Shown: in pieces, positions 4,983 to 42,406 of the stretch
Position numbering within the stretch: position 1 is the stretch's first letter
Layout: every line of letters starts with the position of its first letter
From: an uncultured bacterium
GTDB taxonomy: Bacteria; Elusimicrobiota; Elusimicrobia; Elusimicrobiales; Elusimicrobiaceae
NCBI GenBank assembly: GCA_949291545.1
Contig: CASEWB010000006.1
Location: forward strand, 1 to 64,000
Reading direction: 5' to 3'
DNA: 64,000 bases
Notes under the pieces: generated by a model
Told to the model about the DNA's origin: nothing
Databases searched by the model: none
What the model saw: only the letters and a program-made list of their open reading frames with translations
Program-made: the position numbers and the translations under genes

Positions 4983-5169
4983 CAAATCACTATCAAAATC
5001 ATTATATTAATTGCAGCCCGCTAACTATGCCAGATACAAACATATGCAATACAAGTATAAGCATCGGGCGTTTTGGTGCCAGGGATTTTTGCAGTTACGG
5101 AAGAGAAGAACACCGTGAAGATTCTTGTACCTTACTTTAAACCCAATTACTGACATTTCCCTGCTGTCG

Positions 5170-5321
5170 CCTGTTTTTTCCCTGTTCTCTATTTTAGGGA
5201 ATTTGGAGTGTTTTCCTTTGGATTGCTCCGACGAGGCATTTCATGGGGATATATCCCCAAAATCCGCAAAATACGCTAAAAATGGGTAAAACTCCCTGTT
5301 TTTTCCCTGTTAAACAGGGAA
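5170..5321. repeat. Direct repeat and palindrome (CCTGTTTTTTCCCTGTT)
   Basis: CCTGTTTTTTCCCTGTT occurs at 5170-5186 and again at 5295-5311. The second copy continues into a perfect palindrome, TTCCCTGTT / AACAGGGAA (5303-5311 and 5313-5321). The first copy is followed by a looser TTCCCT ... AGGGAA pair. Such repeats could be remnants of a recombination or insertion site. Confidence 0.6.
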
Positions 5322-5377
5322 CTCTCAGTACGCGTTCTAAGAGGTACTCACAGTCACAACTCCGTGCCCGACCATTT

Positions 5378-5407
5378 AAAAAGACACCTTTTGCAAAGTG
5401 TCTTTTT
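5378..5407 (+). terminator. Hairpin terminator downstream of the Fpg cluster
   Basis: AAAAAGACAC (5378-5387) pairs with GTGTCTTTTT (5398-5407), loop of ten bases, with a T run in both readings. It could end transcripts from either side; no other terminator follows mutM. Confidence 0.6.
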
Positions 5408-5590
5408 TGTTGTCCATACATCCCGGCTCTCGTCGGGAGCTTCCTTGATTTTTTTATGATAAAAACAGCATTACAGTTGTTCGTTTACCACGCCATCTTT
5501 GCAGCTGTTTCACAAAATTTACGGATTTATTTATCTCATTAATCCTTCGTAATTTTAATGGAGAACAAATACATCCATTCGTGGCAATTC

Positions 5591-6832
5591 CTACAAATTA
5601 CGGATAGCCCACGGTTTGGGATAGAGGTTGTTGGCTCGGTCGCCCAAGTTTTTTACAAAGCCAAGCGGCTGGCCGTGATACGTCACCAGCACAAAGCCGC
5701 GCGGCGTGTTGTCAGGCAACTTAAGCGTTTCCCGGTGCAAATAGCGCAAAGCCTCTTCCAAAGTCAACTCCGCACGGGGGAAGTCCACCGCCCGTGTGGA
5801 TAGCGAAAGCGCCTGCGCCACTGACGGGATTTGCTCCCGTCCCTTGGCTTCCGGTTGAGGGACTCCGTCGGAAAGCAAATGCAGCAACGGGTATTTTTTC
5901 AACTGTGCACGCAAAGAGGACGGCAATGTGGCAAACGCATTTTTTCCTCCCTGCTTGCGAAGGATTGCCATAAACAGCCCCTCGCTGCGCGTCGTGCCGG
6001 GGATAAAACGATACACCGGCTGTTGCCACCCTTCCAATAAACTGCCTGTAATGGGCCAATCCGGCAAAACCGGCACGGGCACAAGCTCCGCCCCCAATTC
6101 CTCGGCAATCCAGCGAATGTTTTCCTCGTTTTCGTATGTATTAAATGTGCAAGTGCTGTAAATCAGCAAACCGCCGTCTTTTAGGCACGGCCAAATATCA
6201 CGCAAAATCTGCCGCTGGCGCTGGGCGCAGAAATGCACATTTTGCGGGCTCCATTCGTTCACGGCGGCAGGCTCACGCCGAAAAAGCCCCTCGCCCGAAC
6301 ACGGCACATCTGTCAAAATAACATCAAACAGCAGATTGGTTTTGGCAAAATCTTTGGGTGCATTGTGCGTAACCAATACGCCCGGATGCCCTTGTTTTAA
6401 GATGTTTTCCAAAAGGATATTGGCGCGGCGGCGGTCAATTTCGTTACTGACAAGCACAGACCCTTCCGGCAAAGCGGCGCGCATAAGGGTAGATTTTCCC
6501 CCCGGAGCCGCGCACAAATCCAGCGCGCTGACGGGGGCAGAAATTACTTGCCGCAAAACATAATCCAAAAATAGCGAAGCGGCCTCCTGCACATAATACA
6601 CCCCCGCGTGAAAGAGCGGGTCCAGCGTAAAGCGGTGGCGGTCTTTCAGCCAAAATCCCTGCCGGCACCATGGCACGGGTTCGGCATCTGGAAAGGGGTT
6701 TTCCGCAGCTTTCCAGGGGTTTAGCCGCACGCTTACGGGAACTTCGTGCGAAAAGGATTGCACGAAATGTTCCCAACGCACAGCGCCGAACAATCGGGAG
6801 GTATAGTCAGTAAATTCTGGAGGCAAAATCAT
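5591..6832 (-). CDS. RsmF/NOL1-NOP2-Sun family rRNA (cytosine-C5) methyltransferase
   Basis: 413-residue SAM-dependent RNA m5C methyltransferase. The SAM-binding motif I is LDLCAAPGGKS near residue 105; the two cysteine motifs are DVPCSGEGLFRRE (motif IV) and STCTFNTYENE (motif VI), which hold the release and catalytic cysteines. The C-terminal part after residue 290 matches the PUA-like tail of the RsmF/YebU type. It is transcribed alone. The predicted -10 TACAAT lies ten bases before the ATG and no strong ribosome site is visible, so the leader is very short. The exact rRNA position modified cannot be inferred. Confidence 0.88.
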   Translation of the reverse strand: MILPPEFTDYTSRLFGAVRWEHFVQSFSHEVPVSVRLNPWKAAENPFPDAEPVPWCRQGFWLKDRHRFTLDPLFHAGVYYVQEAASLFLDYVLRQVISAPVSALDLCAAPGGKSTLMRAALPEGSVLVSNEIDRRRANILLENILKQGHPGVLVTHNAPKDFAKTNLLFDVILTDVPCSGEGLFRREPAAVNEWSPQNVHFCAQRQRQILRDIWPCLKDGGLLIYSTCTFNTYENEENIRWIAEELGAELVPVPVLPDWPITGSLLEGWQQPVYRFIPGTTRSEGLFMAILRKQGGKNAFATLPSSLRAQLKKYPLLHLLSDGVPQPEAKGREQIPSVAQALSLSTRAVDFPRAELTLEEALRYLHRETLKLPDNTPRGFVLVTYHGQPLGFVKNLGDRANNLYPKPWAIRNL

Positions 6833-6992
6833 AAGATACTTTATTGTACAATTATTGATACAAAATTACTGACACATCTCCTTCCTTAAAAACAGGTGCT
6901 GCAAGCGGCGAAAGGTTGTAAAGCGCGGCATCGGGGCCCTTAAAAACTGGCTGCCGGGCAAAAACATCCTCCAACCCGTACAACCTACCAAA

Positions 6993-7030
6993 AAAACAGC
7001 CCTCTAAACGCCACAAGCGAAAGAGGGCTT
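6993..7030 (-). terminator. Terminator of the 7097-9363 operon
   Basis: AGCCCTCT (6999-7006) and AGAGGGCT (7023-7030) form a stem. Read on the minus strand it is followed by a run of seven T (6991-6997), just after the stop of the hydrolase gene at 7097. Confidence 0.8.
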
Positions 7031-7096
7031 TCCTTCCTTTTTCCCCAAAATTAACAAGGCACCATCAGCAAGGAGCCTTTTAACATAAAGTTTTCG

Positions 7097-8416
7097 CTAC
7101 TTAACAGTAACCGTTAAATCGGACGGCACCGCCAGCACTTCCGGCAGGCGGGAACGAACGGTAAACACGGAAGACTTCGCCGCTCTTAAGAGGGCAGCTT
7201 CTTCGGGCGATACTGGCACTTGCAGGAAAAAGGCGTTTTCTTCCTCAAAAAATCCTCTTACGGGCAGGCCGCTCAACACCACTTTTCCGCCCTGCAAAAT
7301 ATCCACCTCGCACGCAAAACGAACCCAAAAGGGCATTTGCTTTCCAGGCACTTGCAGCATCAAATCCGTATCGCCCAAGTATTCTTTATCATGCGTAAGC
7401 GGCGTTTGCTTCCCCCAATATAAGCGCGTTACCTGCAAAGGCAACCAGACCGGATTTCTAGAAGTATCGGTAAGCGCAATTGGACGCAAGGGGCCGCCTT
7501 GCGAGTGCGTTTTTAAAAACGCAATCATATCCTGCTGGATAGGTTCGTGCTCGGTCTTGGGATAAGTATGCGTCTGCACATTAGGGGCCAGCTGTGCCAG
7601 CAAAGCGCGGGCGGTTTCCCAACGGTTTTGAATGCTTCCTTGCCCAAATACATATAGAACCAAATCTCCGTCTTCCTGCCCGTATACAGAATTCAAAGGA
7701 TCGTTGTAATCATACGCCCCATTGGTCAACAAAATGGGAATTTTACGCCAGGCTTTTTCGTTAAAATCCCGTCCGGTCACTTCCTTAACATCGGACACTC
7801 CTACCGGGAACAGTAATTCTTTTCCTTTGAAAGACTTTACCGGAAGCGCCGGATACATTTCCCCGCCTGCCGCCACAGCCAAGATTTTTTTAGGATGCAG
7901 CAAAGCCAATTTCCAGCCAAACGCTCCCGCGGAAGAAAACCCCGCCACCAAAAATTTCTTTTGGGTGCGTATGCCTTCTTTTTTCAGTTGTTTGCGGGCA
8001 TCTTGAAGCATAGCAATAACCTGCTTGTCCAAGCGTTTGTAGGGGCCTTCTTTTACTAAAAAAGCCGCCCGGTTCAAATCGTGAGAGTTCACCTCCCCCT
8101 TTTCCCGTGGAATCAGCGGCAATACCATCGGAACACCTATTTCATAGGCAATATAATCTTCGTTGCCGCGCCCAAAACGTTCCCGCGTGGCTTGTTCCAA
8201 TTCGGCGGCGGACTTAAAAATTCCGCTGTCGTTCATTGTAAACAAAACAGGCAACGTTTTTTCTTTATCCACCGTATTGGGGATATACAGCAAATAATCC
8301 CAATAAAAGCCAGCTTTTGGATTAGCCGGAACCGTGCGGATTTCCCCTTCCGGGGCGGCCCAGCCGGCAACAACAGCAACCAACAACAAAAATCCAGTCC
8401 ACAGATATTTTTTCAT
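7097..8416 (-). CDS. Secreted alpha/beta-hydrolase-like protein
   Basis: 439 residues with a clear signal peptide (about residues 1-20, cleavage after GWA-A). The middle has an esterase/alpha-beta hydrolase look: strand-rich LPVLFTMNDS, a probable nucleophile elbow AGFSSAGAFG near residue 160, and a His in TYPKTEHEPIQQ near residue 290. The last 120 residues form a separate beta-rich region of unknown role. Poly(3-hydroxybutyrate) depolymerase-like esterases have this layout, but the substrate is not readable. GGGAG precedes the start. It follows the 8419-9363 gene by two bases, so the two secreted proteins are co-expressed. Confidence 0.65.
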   Translation of the reverse strand: MKKYLWTGFLLLVAVVAGWAAPEGEIRTVPANPKAGFYWDYLLYIPNTVDKEKTLPVLFTMNDSGIFKSAAELEQATRERFGRGNEDYIAYEIGVPMVLPLIPREKGEVNSHDLNRAAFLVKEGPYKRLDKQVIAMLQDARKQLKKEGIRTQKKFLVAGFSSAGAFGWKLALLHPKKILAVAAGGEMYPALPVKSFKGKELLFPVGVSDVKEVTGRDFNEKAWRKIPILLTNGAYDYNDPLNSVYGQEDGDLVLYVFGQGSIQNRWETARALLAQLAPNVQTHTYPKTEHEPIQQDMIAFLKTHSQGGPLRPIALTDTSRNPVWLPLQVTRLYWGKQTPLTHDKEYLGDTDLMLQVPGKQMPFWVRFACEVDILQGGKVVLSGLPVRGFFEEENAFFLQVPVSPEEAALLRAAKSSVFTVRSRLPEVLAVPSDLTVTVK

Positions 8417-8418
8417 CT

Positions 8419-9363
8419 TTACTCCCTTACCAACACCTTTTCTTGCAAATTATCCCAATTACAATCTTGCCACAAAGGCTGTGGCGAAAGTTGCTTCCCA
8501 TCAATCACCTGCGGGGTTCCCAGCAGCTGCTGCAACGCCGGTACCAAATCCATATAATGGCCTGCCCCCATTTCCGCAAACACCACATCATATTGGTTCA
8601 GCGCCGCCGTAATGTTTTGCAGCATGAACTGGCTCCGCGCCAGCCCGATAGCACTATTCAAACGGTAAAAAGGTGTTTTAGTTACCCACTTTTCGGGATA
8701 AACGTTCATCAAGTCCTGGTAAAGCCGGATAAAATCGGTTTCAGCGAAATTTTGTTTGTAATACTTTTTAAAATAAGCATTCAGGCGTTTTTCGGTAAAC
8801 AGTTCGCCCCACGCGGCGTGGTGGTCCCGCTTGGCATACGAAGCAATTGCTTCCGCGGGCGTAAACGGCTGATCGGTTTCCCGAGCGCGGCCGTATCCGT
8901 CGCGGATGATCCACAGCATTTGCCAATCCTCGTACGAAAATCCGTTTTCTTTGGCAAATTGCCATTGTTTTTCAAGCGATATATCAGCCCGCACCAGCGG
9001 GATTTGCCGTTTACCGCAGAGCGCGGCGGTATAGCTGTCCTCCGCTTCCGTACACGGGCCGCCAAACGCTTCCCCGGGCTCCCGCTCCACCAAAGCCACC
9101 TGCGGGGCATACGCATCAAACGCATATTGTACGGACGGCAAGGACTCCGCCCCATGCCGCGCCGCCAATAGCACCAGTTTTTTATTTCCTTTTTGGTACA
9201 CCGTCAAAAAAGGCGGCGCCGGAAATTTTTCATAGTGTTCTTGATGGAAAGTCCGGCGGCTTTCGGAAAGAGCGGAAATATCCGCCGTAAACGGCTGCGC
9301 CGCCGCGTGGCTGAACAAAAAAAGACTGCAAATTCCCCAAATAAATATATGAATGTTGAACAT
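8419..9363 (-). CDS. Secreted TraB/ChaN-like protein
   Basis: 314 residues with an N-terminal signal peptide (cleavage likely after HAAA). The mature part begins a strand KLVLLAARHGAES and then VALVEREP, resembling the G-x-x-H and acidic strand motifs of the TraB/GumN/ChaN (Tiki-like) superfamily. A later AEMGAGHYMDLV resembles the second conserved His motif. Such proteins include metal-dependent proteases and haem-binding proteins; function here is open. It is first in an operon with the hydrolase and probably leaderless: a consensus promoter ends six bases before the ATG. Confidence 0.55.
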   Translation of the reverse strand: MFNIHIFIWGICSLFLFSHAAAQPFTADISALSESRRTFHQEHYEKFPAPPFLTVYQKGNKKLVLLAARHGAESLPSVQYAFDAYAPQVALVEREPGEAFGGPCTEAEDSYTAALCGKRQIPLVRADISLEKQWQFAKENGFSYEDWQMLWIIRDGYGRARETDQPFTPAEAIASYAKRDHHAAWGELFTEKRLNAYFKKYYKQNFAETDFIRLYQDLMNVYPEKWVTKTPFYRLNSAIGLARSQFMLQNITAALNQYDVVFAEMGAGHYMDLVPALQQLLGTPQVIDGKQLSPQPLWQDCNWDNLQEKVLVRE

Positions 9364-9369
9364 ATTTTT

Positions 9370-9421
9370 AATTTAGCAATCCTGCCCCAACATGTCAACC
9401 AACGGCTCTTTTTGCTACACT
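9370..9421. promoter_or_regulatory. Divergent promoters sharing one -35 hexamer
   Basis: Minus strand: TTGACA (9393-9398), 17-base spacer, TAAATT (9370-9375), then six bases to the ATG at 9363. Plus strand: the same hexamer read as TGTCAA, 17-base spacer, TACACT (9416-9421, with TG one base upstream as in extended -10 promoters), then seven bases to the ATG at 9429. Neither gene has a Shine-Dalgarno, so both transcripts may be leaderless. Confidence 0.6.
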
Positions 9422-9428
9422 ATGCATT

Positions 9429-10340
9429 ATGAAACTAAAAATCAAAAATTCTACCCTTACCGTCCTTTCCCCGGTCTATATGGCCTTCTATATCATTTTT
9501 TTACTTCTTGCACTGTTTTTATTGCATTGGCTGGCTGTTCATTTCCAAGCCATAACTTTCGTTTGGAAGGATTTGCTGTCGTATGCACAAAAGGACAACC
9601 TTGTCTCCTATATATTTATTTGCATTTTTCCGGCGATAGTAGCACTGTGGGCAGTGCTTTTCTTCTGGTCCCGTGCGAGCGCTTGGAACAAAGCCCGTAA
9701 AACAAACCCCATTATTTCCCTCTCGTTTGAAGAAACCGCCGTCCGGCTGGAGCGCAAAAAGCCACGCACCGCTATTATCCTGCCCTACACCGAAACCGAT
9801 TTTTCCGTCGGCTTGCCGGTATTTGTGAGCTATAATAAATACGGCCACGCCTTCCCGCATTTGGCCGAGCTGGAAATAACTTTTTCCCATGCGGGCAAAA
9901 CCTATTCTATCCGGCACAAGGGCAAGCTGCCCGCCGTGCAAACGTTGTTGGACGAAAGTAAAAAATTCCGCTCCTTTTCGGCTGATATCAAGCGCCTTTC
10001 TGCCGCCAAACCCGCCACCAGTGTTGAACTGGACTTCATTCGTTTTTTAAAAGAACAGCTGGAAAATCACCGCCGCTACGGGCTGGTGCTGCCGCAATAT
10101 CCCGTACCCCGTGCCATTTTTACGATATTGGGGGTTATCGGGGTGGGCGCCCTGGATTTGGGTTTGGGTATGCAGGCAATGTTTTTATTTACCACGTCGG
10201 CCTGGCTGCTGTTCCCGGTCGTCCTGTTGCTGATGGTGACAGGGCTGACGTTCTGGTGCGCGGTAGACATCAAAAACTATTTTGCATTTCGTGCGGTAGC
10301 CGCCAAATTGGAAAAATTGAAACAGAATTTGCCTTATTAA
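9429..10340 (+). CDS. Uncharacterised membrane protein, 4 TM
   Basis: 303 residues. Two transmembrane segments lie near the N-terminus (about 17-38 and 58-80), then a soluble domain of about 130 residues with mixed strands and helices, and two more segments at about 230-275 before a short cytoplasmic tail. I recognise no enzymatic motif. The start is supported by the promoter at 9416-9421 and is probably leaderless. Its neighbours give no functional hint. Confidence 0.75.
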   Translation: MKLKIKNSTLTVLSPVYMAFYIIFLLLALFLLHWLAVHFQAITFVWKDLLSYAQKDNLVSYIFICIFPAIVALWAVLFFWSRASAWNKARKTNPIISLSFEETAVRLERKKPRTAIILPYTETDFSVGLPVFVSYNKYGHAFPHLAELEITFSHAGKTYSIRHKGKLPAVQTLLDESKKFRSFSADIKRLSAAKPATSVELDFIRFLKEQLENHRRYGLVLPQYPVPRAIFTILGVIGVGALDLGLGMQAMFLFTTSAWLLFPVVLLLMVTGLTFWCAVDIKNYFAFRAVAAKLEKLKQNLPY

Positions 10341-10358
10341 TGAAAAAGTCTTCGGCCT

Positions 10359-11027
10359 ATGTCCCCGGAAGAAAAAATAGCTAAAACAATTGGCTGTAAC
10401 AGTTGCCATCTGTGTTCTTTTGCCCACCTGCTTGGGAAAATTCCGCTCTGGCAATACGGAACGAACTTTGAAAAAAGCAAATACAAAATCTTATTTGTAG
10501 GCAAAACAGCCCGTGGTAACTCCAGCCCCTCTTATTACTCGGATGCCGACAAATATAAGGATTTGCCTTGGGCTTTTTGGTCCTATACGCGGGGCATCTA
10601 CACAAAACTTGGCTTGTCGTGGGAAGATGTAGCCATTACTAATCTGGTAAAATGCAATGCTTCTATGGATGTAGACACAACCTCTCAAGAAGTAAAAGAA
10701 AATTGCATTTGCAAGCAACAATTTATAAAAAAAGAAATTCAAATCATCCGCCCTGCATTCATTGTTTTTTATACAAACACCTATTATGATGCAGAAATCA
10801 GCAGCCTGTTTGACAAAATCACTGAAGTTACCGATAGAACATTTAAAATACGCTGCGGGAAAAGGAAAATTTGCTTTTGGCAGTTTAAAGGACACTTAAA
10901 AAACGATTCTTCTGGAACTTGTTTTTATGTGCTTCGGTTAGCACACCCTTCTCGCAAAAACAAAACGGACTTTATAAATTTAGTCACACAATTTATTCTG
11001 CATCCCGACAAAATTCCGGTTTGTTAG
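10359..11027 (+). CDS. Diverged uracil-DNA glycosylase superfamily protein with Fe-S cysteines
   Basis: 222 residues. Cysteine spacing matches the [4Fe-4S] family-4-type UDGs: CNSCHLC at residues 13-19, then NLVKC near residue 100 followed about 17 residues later by CIC. A strand KYKILFVGKTARG stands where the first catalytic motif should be but lacks the usual Gly-Glu-x-Pro, and RLAHPSRK resembles the second (His-Pro-Ser) motif. It may therefore act on another base, or only bind nucleic acid. No good ribosome site is seen; the start at 10359 is the first ATG in frame. Confidence 0.6.
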   Translation: MSPEEKIAKTIGCNSCHLCSFAHLLGKIPLWQYGTNFEKSKYKILFVGKTARGNSSPSYYSDADKYKDLPWAFWSYTRGIYTKLGLSWEDVAITNLVKCNASMDVDTTSQEVKENCICKQQFIKKEIQIIRPAFIVFYTNTYYDAEISSLFDKITEVTDRTFKIRCGKRKICFWQFKGHLKNDSSGTCFYVLRLAHPSRKNKTDFINLVTQFILHPDKIPVC

Positions 11028-11095
11028 AGGCTTTTCCCCTTGTATTTTGCGGGAAATTGATATATAATATATAAAATTGGTTTGAAGGAGCCAAA

Positions 11096-11206
11096 ATGAC
11101 CTCGGAACTGTACAAAAACATTTCCCTCTCTGCCAAAGGCGAAAATGTATGGCAGGGGAAACAATATTTAGTCGGCTTTCTGGCGTCGCTTTTCCGCAAG
11201 GGCTAA
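11096..11206 (+). CDS. Putative 36-residue small protein
   Basis: A short frame with unusually good expression signals: GAAGGAG six bases before the ATG and a TATAAT-like box about 30 bases upstream (around 11062-11067). The peptide begins MTSELYKNISLSAKGENV and ends in FLASLFRKG, amphipathic. It lies between two unrelated genes in a 284-base gap. It could be a small secreted or membrane-active peptide, or a leader peptide for the secreted protein downstream. A weak hairpin with a T run follows the stop. Too short for family assignment. Confidence 0.45.
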   Translation: MTSELYKNISLSAKGENVWQGKQYLVGFLASLFRKG

Positions 11207-11311
11207 AGGGGCCTCCTTTTATATTTGTTGGCCCATACAAAGCACCCGGGCGATAGCCTAAAAGCCCCGTTAGTTAGGCCAAGTACTCCAGAAAAAGCCC
11301 GGAGAAACCAT

Positions 11312-12574
11312 ATGAAGCAGATAGCTCTCTTTGTTGCTGTTTTTATTTTTACCATATGCGGCTTGGCAAACGCACAGACGGTATCGCCCGAGCAATTAAA
11401 AAAATTCAAAGACCGCCTGCCCGCTGGCTTCCTGTCGTTGGACAAGGAGCTATTACATCAATTTGCTCAACAAGGCAAAAAAGAGCCCGCTTCCCAAGGT
11501 GTTCCATTAAACAACACCCAAGGATATTCTTATAAAACACAGATATTTTTTGGCAAAAATTATACGGTTCAGGATGTGCTCAGCTGGCTGCCGTCTTTTA
11601 TTTCCCAGCTTCCCCCCGCCCAACAGCCGCTGTTCCAACGTGCCCGGGAAATCTTGGCGCAGCACACCGTTCCCCACGCCCCCCGCCAACCGGCGGAGTT
11701 GACGCAAACAGCGGTTTTTGCGCAGTGGACCCAGTTCCTTAAATCCGCCAAACCGCATGTGCTAAATGCAAAAGAAGGAAACCCCTTTTCCCTGCCCGAT
11801 TTGCAAAAGGCCCGTGTGATTTTAATCGGGGAGGATCACACGATGCATTATCCCGCGGAGCAATTGGTGGAATACTTAATTGCCTACAATAAATCCGCTC
11901 CCCAAAGCCAGCGCATTACGCATTTGTTTGTGGAATTTGCCTATCAAGCCAATATTGCCATGGAGTTTATTCGGGCCCATATGGGCGAATTGCCCGAAAA
12001 AGAACTGTTAAAGCAAGCCGTACAATATGCACGCCAACAATTAAAAAACAAATACATTGCGGCCTCTTTGCGTGAAGAAGTCCGCTGGCTGCGGTTAGGG
12101 TATCGTTTGCTCCAGGAAAATATGGACGTCGTGTTTTATGCCTATGATATCCCCAGCTCAGCCATTGAAAAACGCAACGCCGCTGCCATGGCGTTTTTGC
12201 AGGCAGGCTACCAACAGCCCGGTACCAAAATGGTCGTGATTGGAGGGGCCTTGCACATGCTGCGGGAAAACCTGAACACACCGCTCTTGGGTGATTCGGA
12301 AATTAACGCACAAAATTCACTGGCTCATACCCCCGGCATAGCGCCCCAAGACATTGTCTCCATACTGGCCGTAGGCGGTGCCATGTGGAAGGATGACCTG
12401 GCCCGGTATAGTGGAAATAACGCAATAGATTTATACCATTTGTTGTTATACAAATTCCAGCAGCAACGCCAAAATTTGGCGTTTAAGACGCCTGCCAAAA
12501 AGTTTGGTTTTGACTATTATTTCTATTTTGACAGTACTAAAAAGCCACAGGTTACGGACGCAAACAACTGGTAA
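11312..12574 (+). CDS. Secreted TraB/ChaN-like haem-binding-type protein
   Basis: 420 residues. The ATG at 11312 is chosen because GGAG precedes it and it yields a proper signal peptide (MKQIALFVAVFIFTICGLAN, cleaved near ANA-Q). Around residue 170 comes RVILIGEDHTMHYPAE, the motif of the ChaN/TraB/EreA-like superfamily, followed by THLFVEFAYQ and, later, MVVIGGALHML. This makes it the second secreted protein of this broad fold within 3 kb. The Gln/Ala-rich N-terminal part of the mature protein has no clear domain. Substrate or ligand unknown; iron or haem handling is one option. Confidence 0.6.
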   Translation: MKQIALFVAVFIFTICGLANAQTVSPEQLKKFKDRLPAGFLSLDKELLHQFAQQGKKEPASQGVPLNNTQGYSYKTQIFFGKNYTVQDVLSWLPSFISQLPPAQQPLFQRAREILAQHTVPHAPRQPAELTQTAVFAQWTQFLKSAKPHVLNAKEGNPFSLPDLQKARVILIGEDHTMHYPAEQLVEYLIAYNKSAPQSQRITHLFVEFAYQANIAMEFIRAHMGELPEKELLKQAVQYARQQLKNKYIAASLREEVRWLRLGYRLLQENMDVVFYAYDIPSSAIEKRNAAAMAFLQAGYQQPGTKMVVIGGALHMLRENLNTPLLGDSEINAQNSLAHTPGIAPQDIVSILAVGGAMWKDDLARYSGNNAIDLYHLLLYKFQQQRQNLAFKTPAKKFGFDYYFYFDSTKKPQVTDANNW

Positions 12575-12591
12575 CAAACTGTTTGATCTTT

Positions 12592-12626
12592 ACCGCTTGC
12601 TTCCCGGTGGAGCAAGCGGTTTTTAG
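12592..12626 (+). terminator. Terminator after the ChaN-like gene
   Basis: ACCGCTTGCT (12592-12601) pairs perfectly with AGCAAGCGGT (12611-12620), followed by a T run. Confidence 0.85.
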
Positions 12627-12697
12627 TTGAATGTCTTTCCGTTTTTTTACGCCACAAATAACCGCCGCTTTTGCGTGCGGGTATAAGCGTCTGTTTT

Positions 12698-12722
12698 CCC
12701 GGCTTTTGGGCCGGGTTTTTTA
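12698..12722 (+). terminator. Second terminator in the same gap
   Basis: CCCGGC (12698-12703) and GCCGGG (12710-12715) flank a short loop, followed by six T. About 70 bases separate it from the first terminator, with a further hairpin at about 12659-12682 in between. Confidence 0.6.
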
Positions 12723-12846
12723 ATCCTTTTTTATATAACCCTTTTTCACCCTTTTCAAACGGTTTTGTTTTTCTGCAATTTATTATAATATAGGAAAGAA
12801 ACCGCCGCGCGCCGCCAACCGGCGTCCGCACCGCAGGAGGGGGAAT

Positions 12847-13830
12847 ATGGATATTACGACACTTAACAAACAAGTCCAGCAAGAAAGCATTTTTTTGCAA
12901 GATTTAAAACGCGAAGTAGGCAAAGTAATCGTAGGGCAGGACGCCCTGGTGGAAAAAATGCTGGTGGCCTTGCTGGCTGACGGGCACATTTTAATTGAAG
13001 GCGTGCCCGGGCTGGCCAAAACGCTGGCCGTAAAAACCCTGGCGCAAGCTATCCACGCGCAGTTTCAGCGCATTCAATTTACACCCGATTTGCTCCCGGC
13101 CGATATCACGGGCACGCTTATTTTTAACCCCAAGGACGGGTTATTCTACCCCAAGCGCGGGCCGGTATTTTCCAACTTTGTTCTGGCCGACGAAATCAAC
13201 CGTTCCCCGGCCAAAGTGCAAAGCGCCCTATTGGAAGCCATGCAGGAACGCCAAGTTACTATCGGCGAGCAAACCTACAAACTGCCCTCCCCGTTTATGG
13301 TAATGGCCACGCAAAACCCCGTGGAGCAGGAAGGTACCTACCCGCTGCCGGAAGCCCAGGTGGACCGCTTTATGCTTAAAGTGCTGGTCACCTACCCGAC
13401 GAAAGAAGAAGAAAAAATGATTTTGGAGCGTATGGCCTCGCACAAACCGATAGAAATAAACACCAACGTCACTCCGGAAATGATTTTAAAGGCCCGCACC
13501 GTAACGGACAGCATTTATGTAGACGAAAAAATCAAAAACTACATTGTGGATCTCGTGTTCGCCACGCGCGACCCGAAAGCCGCCGGTCTGGAGAAACTTG
13601 CCTCGTTTATTGCTTACGGCGCCAGCCCGCGTGCCACCATTTTCCTCACGCAGGCCGCCAAGGCGTACGCATTCTTGAACGGGCGCGGCTACGTCACGCC
13701 GGAAGATATCAAAGCCGTCGGCTTAGATGTGCTGCGCCACCGCGTGCTGTTGTCCTACGAAGCCGAGGCCGAAAACATTTCGTCCGATCAAATCGTCAAA
13801 CAGATTTTTGACGCCGTGGACGTACCGTAG
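12847..13830 (+). CDS. MoxR-family AAA+ ATPase
   Basis: 327 residues. Walker A is GVPGLAKT (residues 52-59), Walker B with sensor region FVLADEINRSPAKVQS (from residue 111), and the arginine-rich second domain follows. A strong GGAGG site precedes the ATG. MoxR ATPases act as chaperones that help assemble partner complexes containing von Willebrand A proteins; exactly such partners follow (DUF58, BatA, BatB). It is the first gene of the Bat operon, which runs without a clear terminator to 21024 and possibly to pgi. Confidence 0.93.
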   Translation: MDITTLNKQVQQESIFLQDLKREVGKVIVGQDALVEKMLVALLADGHILIEGVPGLAKTLAVKTLAQAIHAQFQRIQFTPDLLPADITGTLIFNPKDGLFYPKRGPVFSNFVLADEINRSPAKVQSALLEAMQERQVTIGEQTYKLPSPFMVMATQNPVEQEGTYPLPEAQVDRFMLKVLVTYPTKEEEKMILERMASHKPIEINTNVTPEMILKARTVTDSIYVDEKIKNYIVDLVFATRDPKAAGLEKLASFIAYGASPRATIFLTQAAKAYAFLNGRGYVTPEDIKAVGLDVLRHRVLLSYEAEAENISSDQIVKQIFDAVDVP

Positions 13831-13848
13831 TTCTACTGGGGGTAAACC

Positions 13849-14739
13849 GTGGATACCGCGGAAATTTTAAAAAAAGTACGCCAAATTGAAATCCAAACGA
13901 ACAAATTGGTGTCGGAAACGTTCGCCGGAGAATATTTGAGCGCTTTCAAAGGCCAAGGGATAGAATTTGCCGAAGTGCGCGAATATACCCCTGGCGACGA
14001 CGTGCGCTCTATTGACTGGAACGTCACCGCGCGCACGGGCGTACCTTATATAAAAAAATACAACGAAGAACGCGAGCTTACTTTAATGATTGCGTGCGAC
14101 GTTTCCGCCTCGCAAAAATTCGGCTCCGCCGATAAGCTAAAGCAGGAAATCGCCGCCGAACTGGCCGCCTTGTTTGCCTTTTCCGCCATCAAAAACAGCG
14201 ATAAAGTGGGCCTGATGCTCTTTTCGGACAAGATTGAACTCTTTGTCCCTCCGCGCAAAGGCAAAAAACACGTCCTGCGCCTAATCCGCGAACTAATTGC
14301 TTTCGAGCCGCAAAGCACGGGCACCAACATTGCTCTGTGTTTGGAAACGTTAAGCAAAGTAATTAAACGCCAAGGCATTTTAATTTTAATTTCGGATTTT
14401 TTGGCCCCGGTTTCCTCGTTTTCCAAACCGTTCAAACTGGCGGCGCGAAAGTTTGACTTAATTCCCGTTATTGTACAAGATAAACTGGAAACGCGCCTGC
14501 CGGCTGTGCACGCCTGCATAGACGTAACAGACCCGGAAACCGGACAGGAAGATTTTTTGTGTCTTTCGTCCTCGGAAATCAACGACGCGCTGGACGACCG
14601 CGCCCGCACCCAAAACCTAAACCTGCAGGCGCTGTTTAACCCATATAAAATAGAGCCGATCCGGGTAGACACGGCCTTGCCGCCGGCGGACCCGGTTATC
14701 GCGTTTTTTAAACAACGCGCTAAAAAAATTAGGAGATAG
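13849..14739 (+). CDS. DUF58 protein (VWA-like)
   Basis: 296 residues, predicted start GTG at 13849 with GGGGG upstream. The DUF58 signature EYTPGDDVRSIDWNVTA spans residues 45-61, followed by a von Willebrand A-like strand with the metal-site motif DVSAS at 84-88 and a second Asp in LLISDFL. DUF58 genes are typically encoded just after MoxR. It probably binds MoxR or the BatA/BatB proteins at the inner membrane; no transmembrane segment is seen in the protein itself. Confidence 0.9.
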   Translation: MDTAEILKKVRQIEIQTNKLVSETFAGEYLSAFKGQGIEFAEVREYTPGDDVRSIDWNVTARTGVPYIKKYNEERELTLMIACDVSASQKFGSADKLKQEIAAELAALFAFSAIKNSDKVGLMLFSDKIELFVPPRKGKKHVLRLIRELIAFEPQSTGTNIALCLETLSKVIKRQGILILISDFLAPVSSFSKPFKLAARKFDLIPVIVQDKLETRLPAVHACIDVTDPETGQEDFLCLSSSEINDALDDRARTQNLNLQALFNPYKIEPIRVDTALPPADPVIAFFKQRAKKIRR

Positions 14740-42282: not shown

Positions 42283-42406
42283 CAAAAGCACCTCCCTGAC
42301 CCTTTTAGAGCGGTTTTCTCCCGCCTGAAACAAGCCAGCCTGTTTACCGTCACTACGGGAAGTGTATCAAAAAAAAAAAACGAGTCAACCCGTCGCAAAA
42401 AACCAC

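Follow-up and report, generated by a model that had tools for sequence, protein, structure and literature searches.

The gap between two divergently oriented genes at 9364–9428 of the window (the whole 64,000 nucleotide stretch analysed, from a contig of an uncultured bacterium assigned to the Elusimicrobiaceae) is best understood, with a probability of roughly 0.86, as containing two independent back-to-back promoters, each probably leaderless, that share no −35 element. The minus-strand promoter, in which an extended −10 is paired with a TTGACA −35 of its own, would drive an operon comprising the genes at 8419–9363 and 7097–8416, and that of the plus strand, serving the gene at 9429–10340, would consist of an extended −10 and an upstream T-run, with no real −35. 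With each −10 lying 6–7 nucleotides (nt) ahead of its ATG, transcription would start on or next to the first codon, and the RNA would be translated without a Shine-Dalgarno leader. The −35 zones of the two would coincide only because the gap is short.

The gap of 65 base pairs (bp) separates the minus-strand ATG at 9363 from the plus-strand ATG at 9429. On the minus strand a hexamer that serves this promoter only, TTGACA (9398–9393), stands a 17 nt spacer away from TAAATT (9375–9370), with TG at 9378–9377 giving the extended −10 TGC-TAAATT (9370–9378), and a 6 nt discriminator (9364–9369), whose length is kept in relatives, leads to the ATG, with the transcript predicted to start on its A, 7 nt past the −10. 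Among eight promoter-like sites in 5000–14000 this is the sole one with a 10/12 match, and it has the TG. Eight is no excess over the mean of 9.3 in shuffled sequence; the motif alone thus proves nothing and comparison with relatives is needed. A tRNA scan, and an Rfam scan restricted to 9000–43000, gave nothing at the promoter site. On the plus strand the extended −10 is TGC-TACACT (9413–9421, with TG at 9413–9414 and the hexamer at 9416–9421) with a T-run upstream, so that TGn directly precedes the −10 hexamer on both strands. The 7 nt discriminator (9422–9428) then reaches the ATG at 9429, at or beside the A of which the transcript is predicted to start; the bases upstream of this ATG are the −10 itself and offer no Shine-Dalgarno sequence.

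TACACT sits 17 nt past TGTCAA, the same six bases that read TTGACA on the other strand, and the initial annotation took this as a single −35 hexamer common to both promoters, each with an exact 17-base spacer to its −10. For the minus strand that description holds, with spacing and elements kept in relatives; for the plus strand the spacing and the −10 stand and TGTCAA as a −35 does not. For a −35, the order TTGACA must run the same way as transcription. TTGACA is not palindromic, and the six bases that match it 6/6 read minus-wise match it only 2/6 read plus-wise, on which ground TGTCAA was rejected as a plus-strand −35. The shared element is a strand reading error in which a reverse complement was mistaken for one and the same signal; the hexamer fits one direction only. 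Could it nevertheless serve both promoters, forcing a choice of direction and with it regulatory competition? The 17 nt spacer on either side and the unaltered hexamer in the two relatives L045 and L046 speak for this. Against it, in the 464 kb of the window's contig that served as genome sample (window included), the only TGTCAA lying 17 nt ahead of TAnAnT is the one at 9393–9398, so TGTCAA does not figure as a −35 in the rest of the sample, and TTGACA at that spacing occurs four times versus 0–3 at 15 other spacings. A weak alternative, ATGTCA at 9392–9397 (plus strand, spacer 18, 4/6), overlaps the minus hexamer by five bases; a plus-strand candidate reaches 4/6 only in loci where the minus TTGACA overlaps, and ATGTCA is probably not used. 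With the comparative evidence below added, a −35 serving both directions is highly improbable.

Eleven loci were compared, the window and ten others (L045–L054) with homologues of the minus-strand gene, eight of the ten being from uncultured Elusimicrobiales and two from entries labelled 'uncultured bacterium'. The −10 of the minus gene is exactly 6 nt before the ATG in 8 of the 11 (window, L045–L049, L052 and L054), the length of the discriminator being constant in these eight while its letters change, and none of the same eight has a Shine-Dalgarno pattern within 20 nt before the gene. The −35, with spacer 17 throughout, is TTGACA (6/6) in the window, L045 and L046, TTGACG (5/6) in L047 and TTGAGT (4/6) in L052; the extended −10 of L046 reads TGC-TAAAGT. 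The plus gene was found in eight loci (window, L045, L046, L047, L050, L051, L052 and L053), and all eight have the plus promoter as TGn followed by TACACT, TAAACT or TATACT, then 6 or 7 nt, then ATG; at spacers of 16–18 not one of the eight has a hexamer with at least five matches to TTGACA. TGTCAA is at the plus −35 position in three of the eight (window, L045 and L046), exactly those where the minus TTGACA is there, and the other five retain a plus promoter with different bases at that position, so sharing is not conserved. Nor is the size of the gap, which is 65 bp in the window, L045 and L046, and 82, 310, 78, 66 and 74 bp in L047, L050, L051, L052 and L053, respectively.

L047 amounts to a natural test. 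It has 17 extra bases between the promoters and retains both −10s, the discriminator lengths and the ATGs, with TTGACG-17-TAAAGT-6-ATG on the minus side, TGA-TACACT-7-ATG on the plus side and TTCCCC at the plus −35 position (spacer 17); the two promoters are decoupled there. L046 differs from the window at 1 of the 22 bases in promoter elements and at 11 of the 43 remaining ones (Fisher p 0.047), and the corresponding comparison with L045 (0 of 22 versus 4 of 43, p 0.29) is uninformative. The minus −35 and −10 and both −10-to-ATG distances are beyond chance, being kept in relatives, with 6–7 nt also the genome-wide peak. Element positions, their conservation, that peak, the lack of a −35 consensus described below and the decoupling in L047 come from sequence and comparison; from them we infer the actual start points and leaderless translation.

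The same −10-to-ATG distance stands out well beyond this gap. In the 464 kb, TGnTAnnnT stands ahead of the ATG of open reading frames (ORFs) of at least 80 amino acids 23 times at a distance of 6 nt and 13 times at 7 nt, and each spacing in the 8–30 range scores 1–7 (peaks at −10 and −5 were disregarded, as ATGs there overlap the motif). With TAnAnT as the motif and a minimum ORF length of 60 amino acids, the counts were 65 at 6 nt and 36 at 7 nt versus 7–23 in the rest of the 0–30 range, and in 376 kb of another genome, G015, TAnAnT gave 38 and 25 versus 3–29 elsewhere. Among genes that are first in their unit, defined by a divergent neighbour or an upstream gap of 60 or more, TAnAnT lies 6–7 nt before the ATG in 47 of 226 versus 4–13 at six control pairs of distances, and the figure for operon-internal genes is 7 of 183. 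TGnTAnAAT is more frequent at 6 than at 12 nt before ATG in 41 of the 41 genomes of the search for relatives (32 versus 4 in the own genome). A set of 74 leaderless genes displays a T-rich stretch and a G before the −10 and no −35 consensus: at spacer 17 its members agree with TTGACA at 1.66/6 positions on average versus 1.30–1.66 at other spacers, and at least five matches are present in 1 of the 74. A plus promoter lacking a −35 is therefore not unusual. Both genes of the pair have the −10 at this 6–7 nt distance, as expected of genes with a TA-led signal, and the claim that each transcript would begin at or beside its ATG gains backing from 8 of 11 minus loci, 8 of 8 plus loci and the genome-wide peak. 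Starts are probably leaderless at both genes and in the group generally, and leaderless −10 promoters look routine at the head of transcription units, both in this bacterium and throughout its order.

Several points weigh against two leaderless and wholly independent promoters. The minus gene has a Shine-Dalgarno-like leader in three of the 11 loci (L050, L051 and L053), from which it follows that a leaderless start is not obligatory for it, and the distant homologues G004, G015, G019, G020 and G022 look, by eye, leadered or operon-internal. L045 has GGAG one base before the ATG, too close for the usual Shine-Dalgarno and uncounted by the pattern, and it and the window are too alike to count as independent. 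Gene calling simply took the longest ORF, and some background is present among the genes counted as leaderless; the G015 count at 7 nt (25) is below the top background value (29), only its 6 nt peak being clear. As to independence, the overlapping ATGTCA (4/6, spacer 18) could contribute slightly to the plus promoter. The three leadered homologues would favour a situation in which a leader precedes one gene or both, the real start codon being further downstream or the real promoter further upstream, and the nearby −10 is a matter of chance. The exact 6 nt spacing through altered discriminators in 8 of 11 loci, with no Shine-Dalgarno within 20 nt in those eight, and the genome-wide peak at the same distance tell against such a coincidence and make it very unlikely. 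Still less likely is that a regulator binds the TTGACATGTT stretch as an operator lying between the two promoters. The six-base palindrome ACATGT overlapping the hexamer hints at one, against which ACATGT is lost in L046 and the window, L045 and L046 have no near-perfect inverted repeat with arms of at least 5 around it; the operator palindrome was dropped for these reasons.

Irrespective of the hexamers, the geometry of two independent promoters in so short a gap merits consideration. The −10s are separate and the predicted start points, 9363 and 9429, are 66 bp apart. RNA polymerase was modelled with a footprint of −55 to +20 and with set limits for −35 contact; its −35 contact zones coincide (9392–9401 and 9391–9400) and the footprints overlap by about 45 bp, a feature which suits the shared hexamer as well as any steric scheme. 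With such overlap, simultaneous occupancy of both promoters is unlikely in the model, whatever the hexamers, and it is from this that we infer steric exclusion. The initial annotation's expectation that polymerase could occupy only one direction at a time is thus geometrically plausible; the built-in competition that it drew from this is unproved as a regulatory device, given gaps of 65–310 bp and the precedent of Escherichia coli. Close packing could still have polymerase on one promoter block the other and couple the genes meaningfully without any shared hexamer, and the 66 bp between start points, the modelled overlap and the divergent leaderless pairs with 61–64 bp elsewhere on the contig, showing that the packing recurs, are in keeping with this. 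Spacing is not conserved, though; L047 (82 bp) and L050 (310 bp) keep the same plus promoter, and for E. coli the competition described in the accessible part of the relevant report shows up chiefly once one of the promoters has been strengthened or activated (PMC12825309). Meaningful coupling by exclusion is accordingly doubtful, and regulation by competition should not be assumed by default.

How general is the arrangement? The sample has 73 divergent neighbours, 11 of which look leaderless on both sides by a loose score, and in none of those 11 do both sides have a hexamer with at least five matches to TTGACA at spacers 16–18. A stricter rule yields seven rows with six distinct gaps on the own contig (62, 64, 65, 82 or 91, 123 and 238 bp) and four in G015 (75, 80, 82 and 303 bp); one further loosely scored pair on the own contig has a 61 bp gap. 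An extrapolation in which T-run or extended −10 leaderless promoters without a −35 would be a main type in Elusimicrobiales, with divergent genes often packed at about 61–66 bp, the least that accommodates two such promoters back to back, and steric exclusion recurrent, seems to us unlikely as a whole.

The gene products flanking the gap are only loosely classified. The 314 amino acid ORF at 8419–9363 (minus) has, by eye, a signal-peptide-like N-terminus and has no Pfam match above the cut-off; the TraB/PrgY/GumN match is below threshold (E 0.17), and the TraB-like label, which draws on it, is tentative. The mean pLDDT of its predicted structure is 82.7 for the best model and 41.6–49.6 for the other four, and a search of PDB folds gave no match at E ≤ 0.001, with TM about 0.27–0.33 for the first three. 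An ORF of 439 amino acids at 7097–8416 (minus), 2 bp after it and likely in the same operon, has a weak, below cut-off resemblance to alpha/beta-hydrolases (E 0.014). The 303 amino acid ORF at 9429–10340 (plus) has hydrophobic stretches like those of a membrane protein, as judged by eye, and no Pfam match. Among close relatives the minus gene seems to alternate between starts with a Shine-Dalgarno leader (L050, L051 and L053) and starts without one (the rest). Its TraB-like frame stops after 48 and 80 amino acids in L051 and L052, respectively, with homology continuing downstream; these early stops would reflect gene decay or assembly error. Near the TraB-like gene, at 11225–12574 (plus), lies another ORF whose product looks secreted; its resemblance to ChaN/Tiki is below threshold (Cofac_haem_bdg, E 0.39).

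Promoters of a prepilin-like gene family on the same contig provide a separate observation. The family (GFTLIELLVVVLIIG or close) has a near-identical, putatively leaderless promoter on the minus strand of the contig, in the numbering of which the window is 1–64000, the first base after the −10 being at 90246, 103360, 104703, 136393, 185337, 248377, 309041, 347422 and 402282. It consists of TTGA or TTGT, a T-run of 8–13, GATAAATT or GATAAACT, 5–6 nt and ATG. The pattern occurs 25 times in the own genome (control 0) and 4–50 times in nine others of the genus, and is absent from 31 of the 41 genomes. The T-run sets the −35 to −10 spacer, which is 12–17 in the sample; in G016, for which 20 of 33 sites were examined, it is mostly 12 (13 of 20). 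Variation in the T-run is possibly phase variation by slippage, or else sequencing noise. Within the window, 42361–42388 (minus) is a promoter of the same type, with TTGACTCG, 12 T and GATACACT, followed by a leader with AGGGAGG, and therefore not leaderless, and then a prepilin-like ORF (MKKGFTLMELLVVVLIIG).

To return to the divergent pair, the gap holds two ordinary, independent promoters, with similar arrangements occurring on the same contig. Being a −35 on one strand does not make a hexamer a −35 for the opposite direction as well, however tempting that strand error, corrected here, may be. What is extended, and clearly so, is the apparent reach of leaderless −10 promoters, to the Elusimicrobiales; otherwise they seem ordinary. 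Their apparent presence in all the searched genomes of the order would bear on the annotation of gene starts in uncultured genomes.

Leaderless −10 promoters are best known from Deinococcus-Thermus and Actinobacteria. Our literature searches surfaced no work on leaderless genes in Elusimicrobiota, which is not a claim that there is none; Elusimicrobiota are listed in a table of anti-Shine-Dalgarno types in the accessible text of PMC10783764. Among known divergent arrangements, the five E. coli bidirectional promoters described in the portion available of PMC12825309 have starts 10–23 bp apart and a basal activity too low for substantial competition, which also speaks against a functional shared hexamer. 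The likeness is in divergent transcription where binding one way would exclude the other; the E. coli type, however, shares a pseudo-symmetric −10 region, whereas here the −10s are separate, the starts 66 bp apart and nothing is shared. The overlapping divergent promoters Pc and Pr of pLS20 resemble the present pair in having polymerase on only one at a time, and differ in that their switch, as presented in the consulted part of PMC4207663, involves a dedicated regulator and DNA looping, neither of which was found at 9364–9428. As regards the individual promoters, Zheng et al. (2011, PMC3160421), in the text available, note TG before the −10 in some low-GC genomes and suggest that the −35 is missing there. 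Such TG is the likeness of their TA-led (leaderless) genes to both promoters here; in that text their signal is per genome, rather than for a divergent pair, and the groups listed with leaderless genes do not name Elusimicrobia, one genome being 'unclassified in RefSeq'. Closest in layout are Deinococcus-Thermus, where, according to the part of PMC12340547 at hand, a fixed spacing between −10 and ORF yields leaderless mRNA and a −35 stimulates without being required. The −10-to-ORF arrangement is the same in the present case, which belongs to another phylum and is predicted from sequence, and, unlike what that text describes, T-runs or TGn often precede the −10 here.
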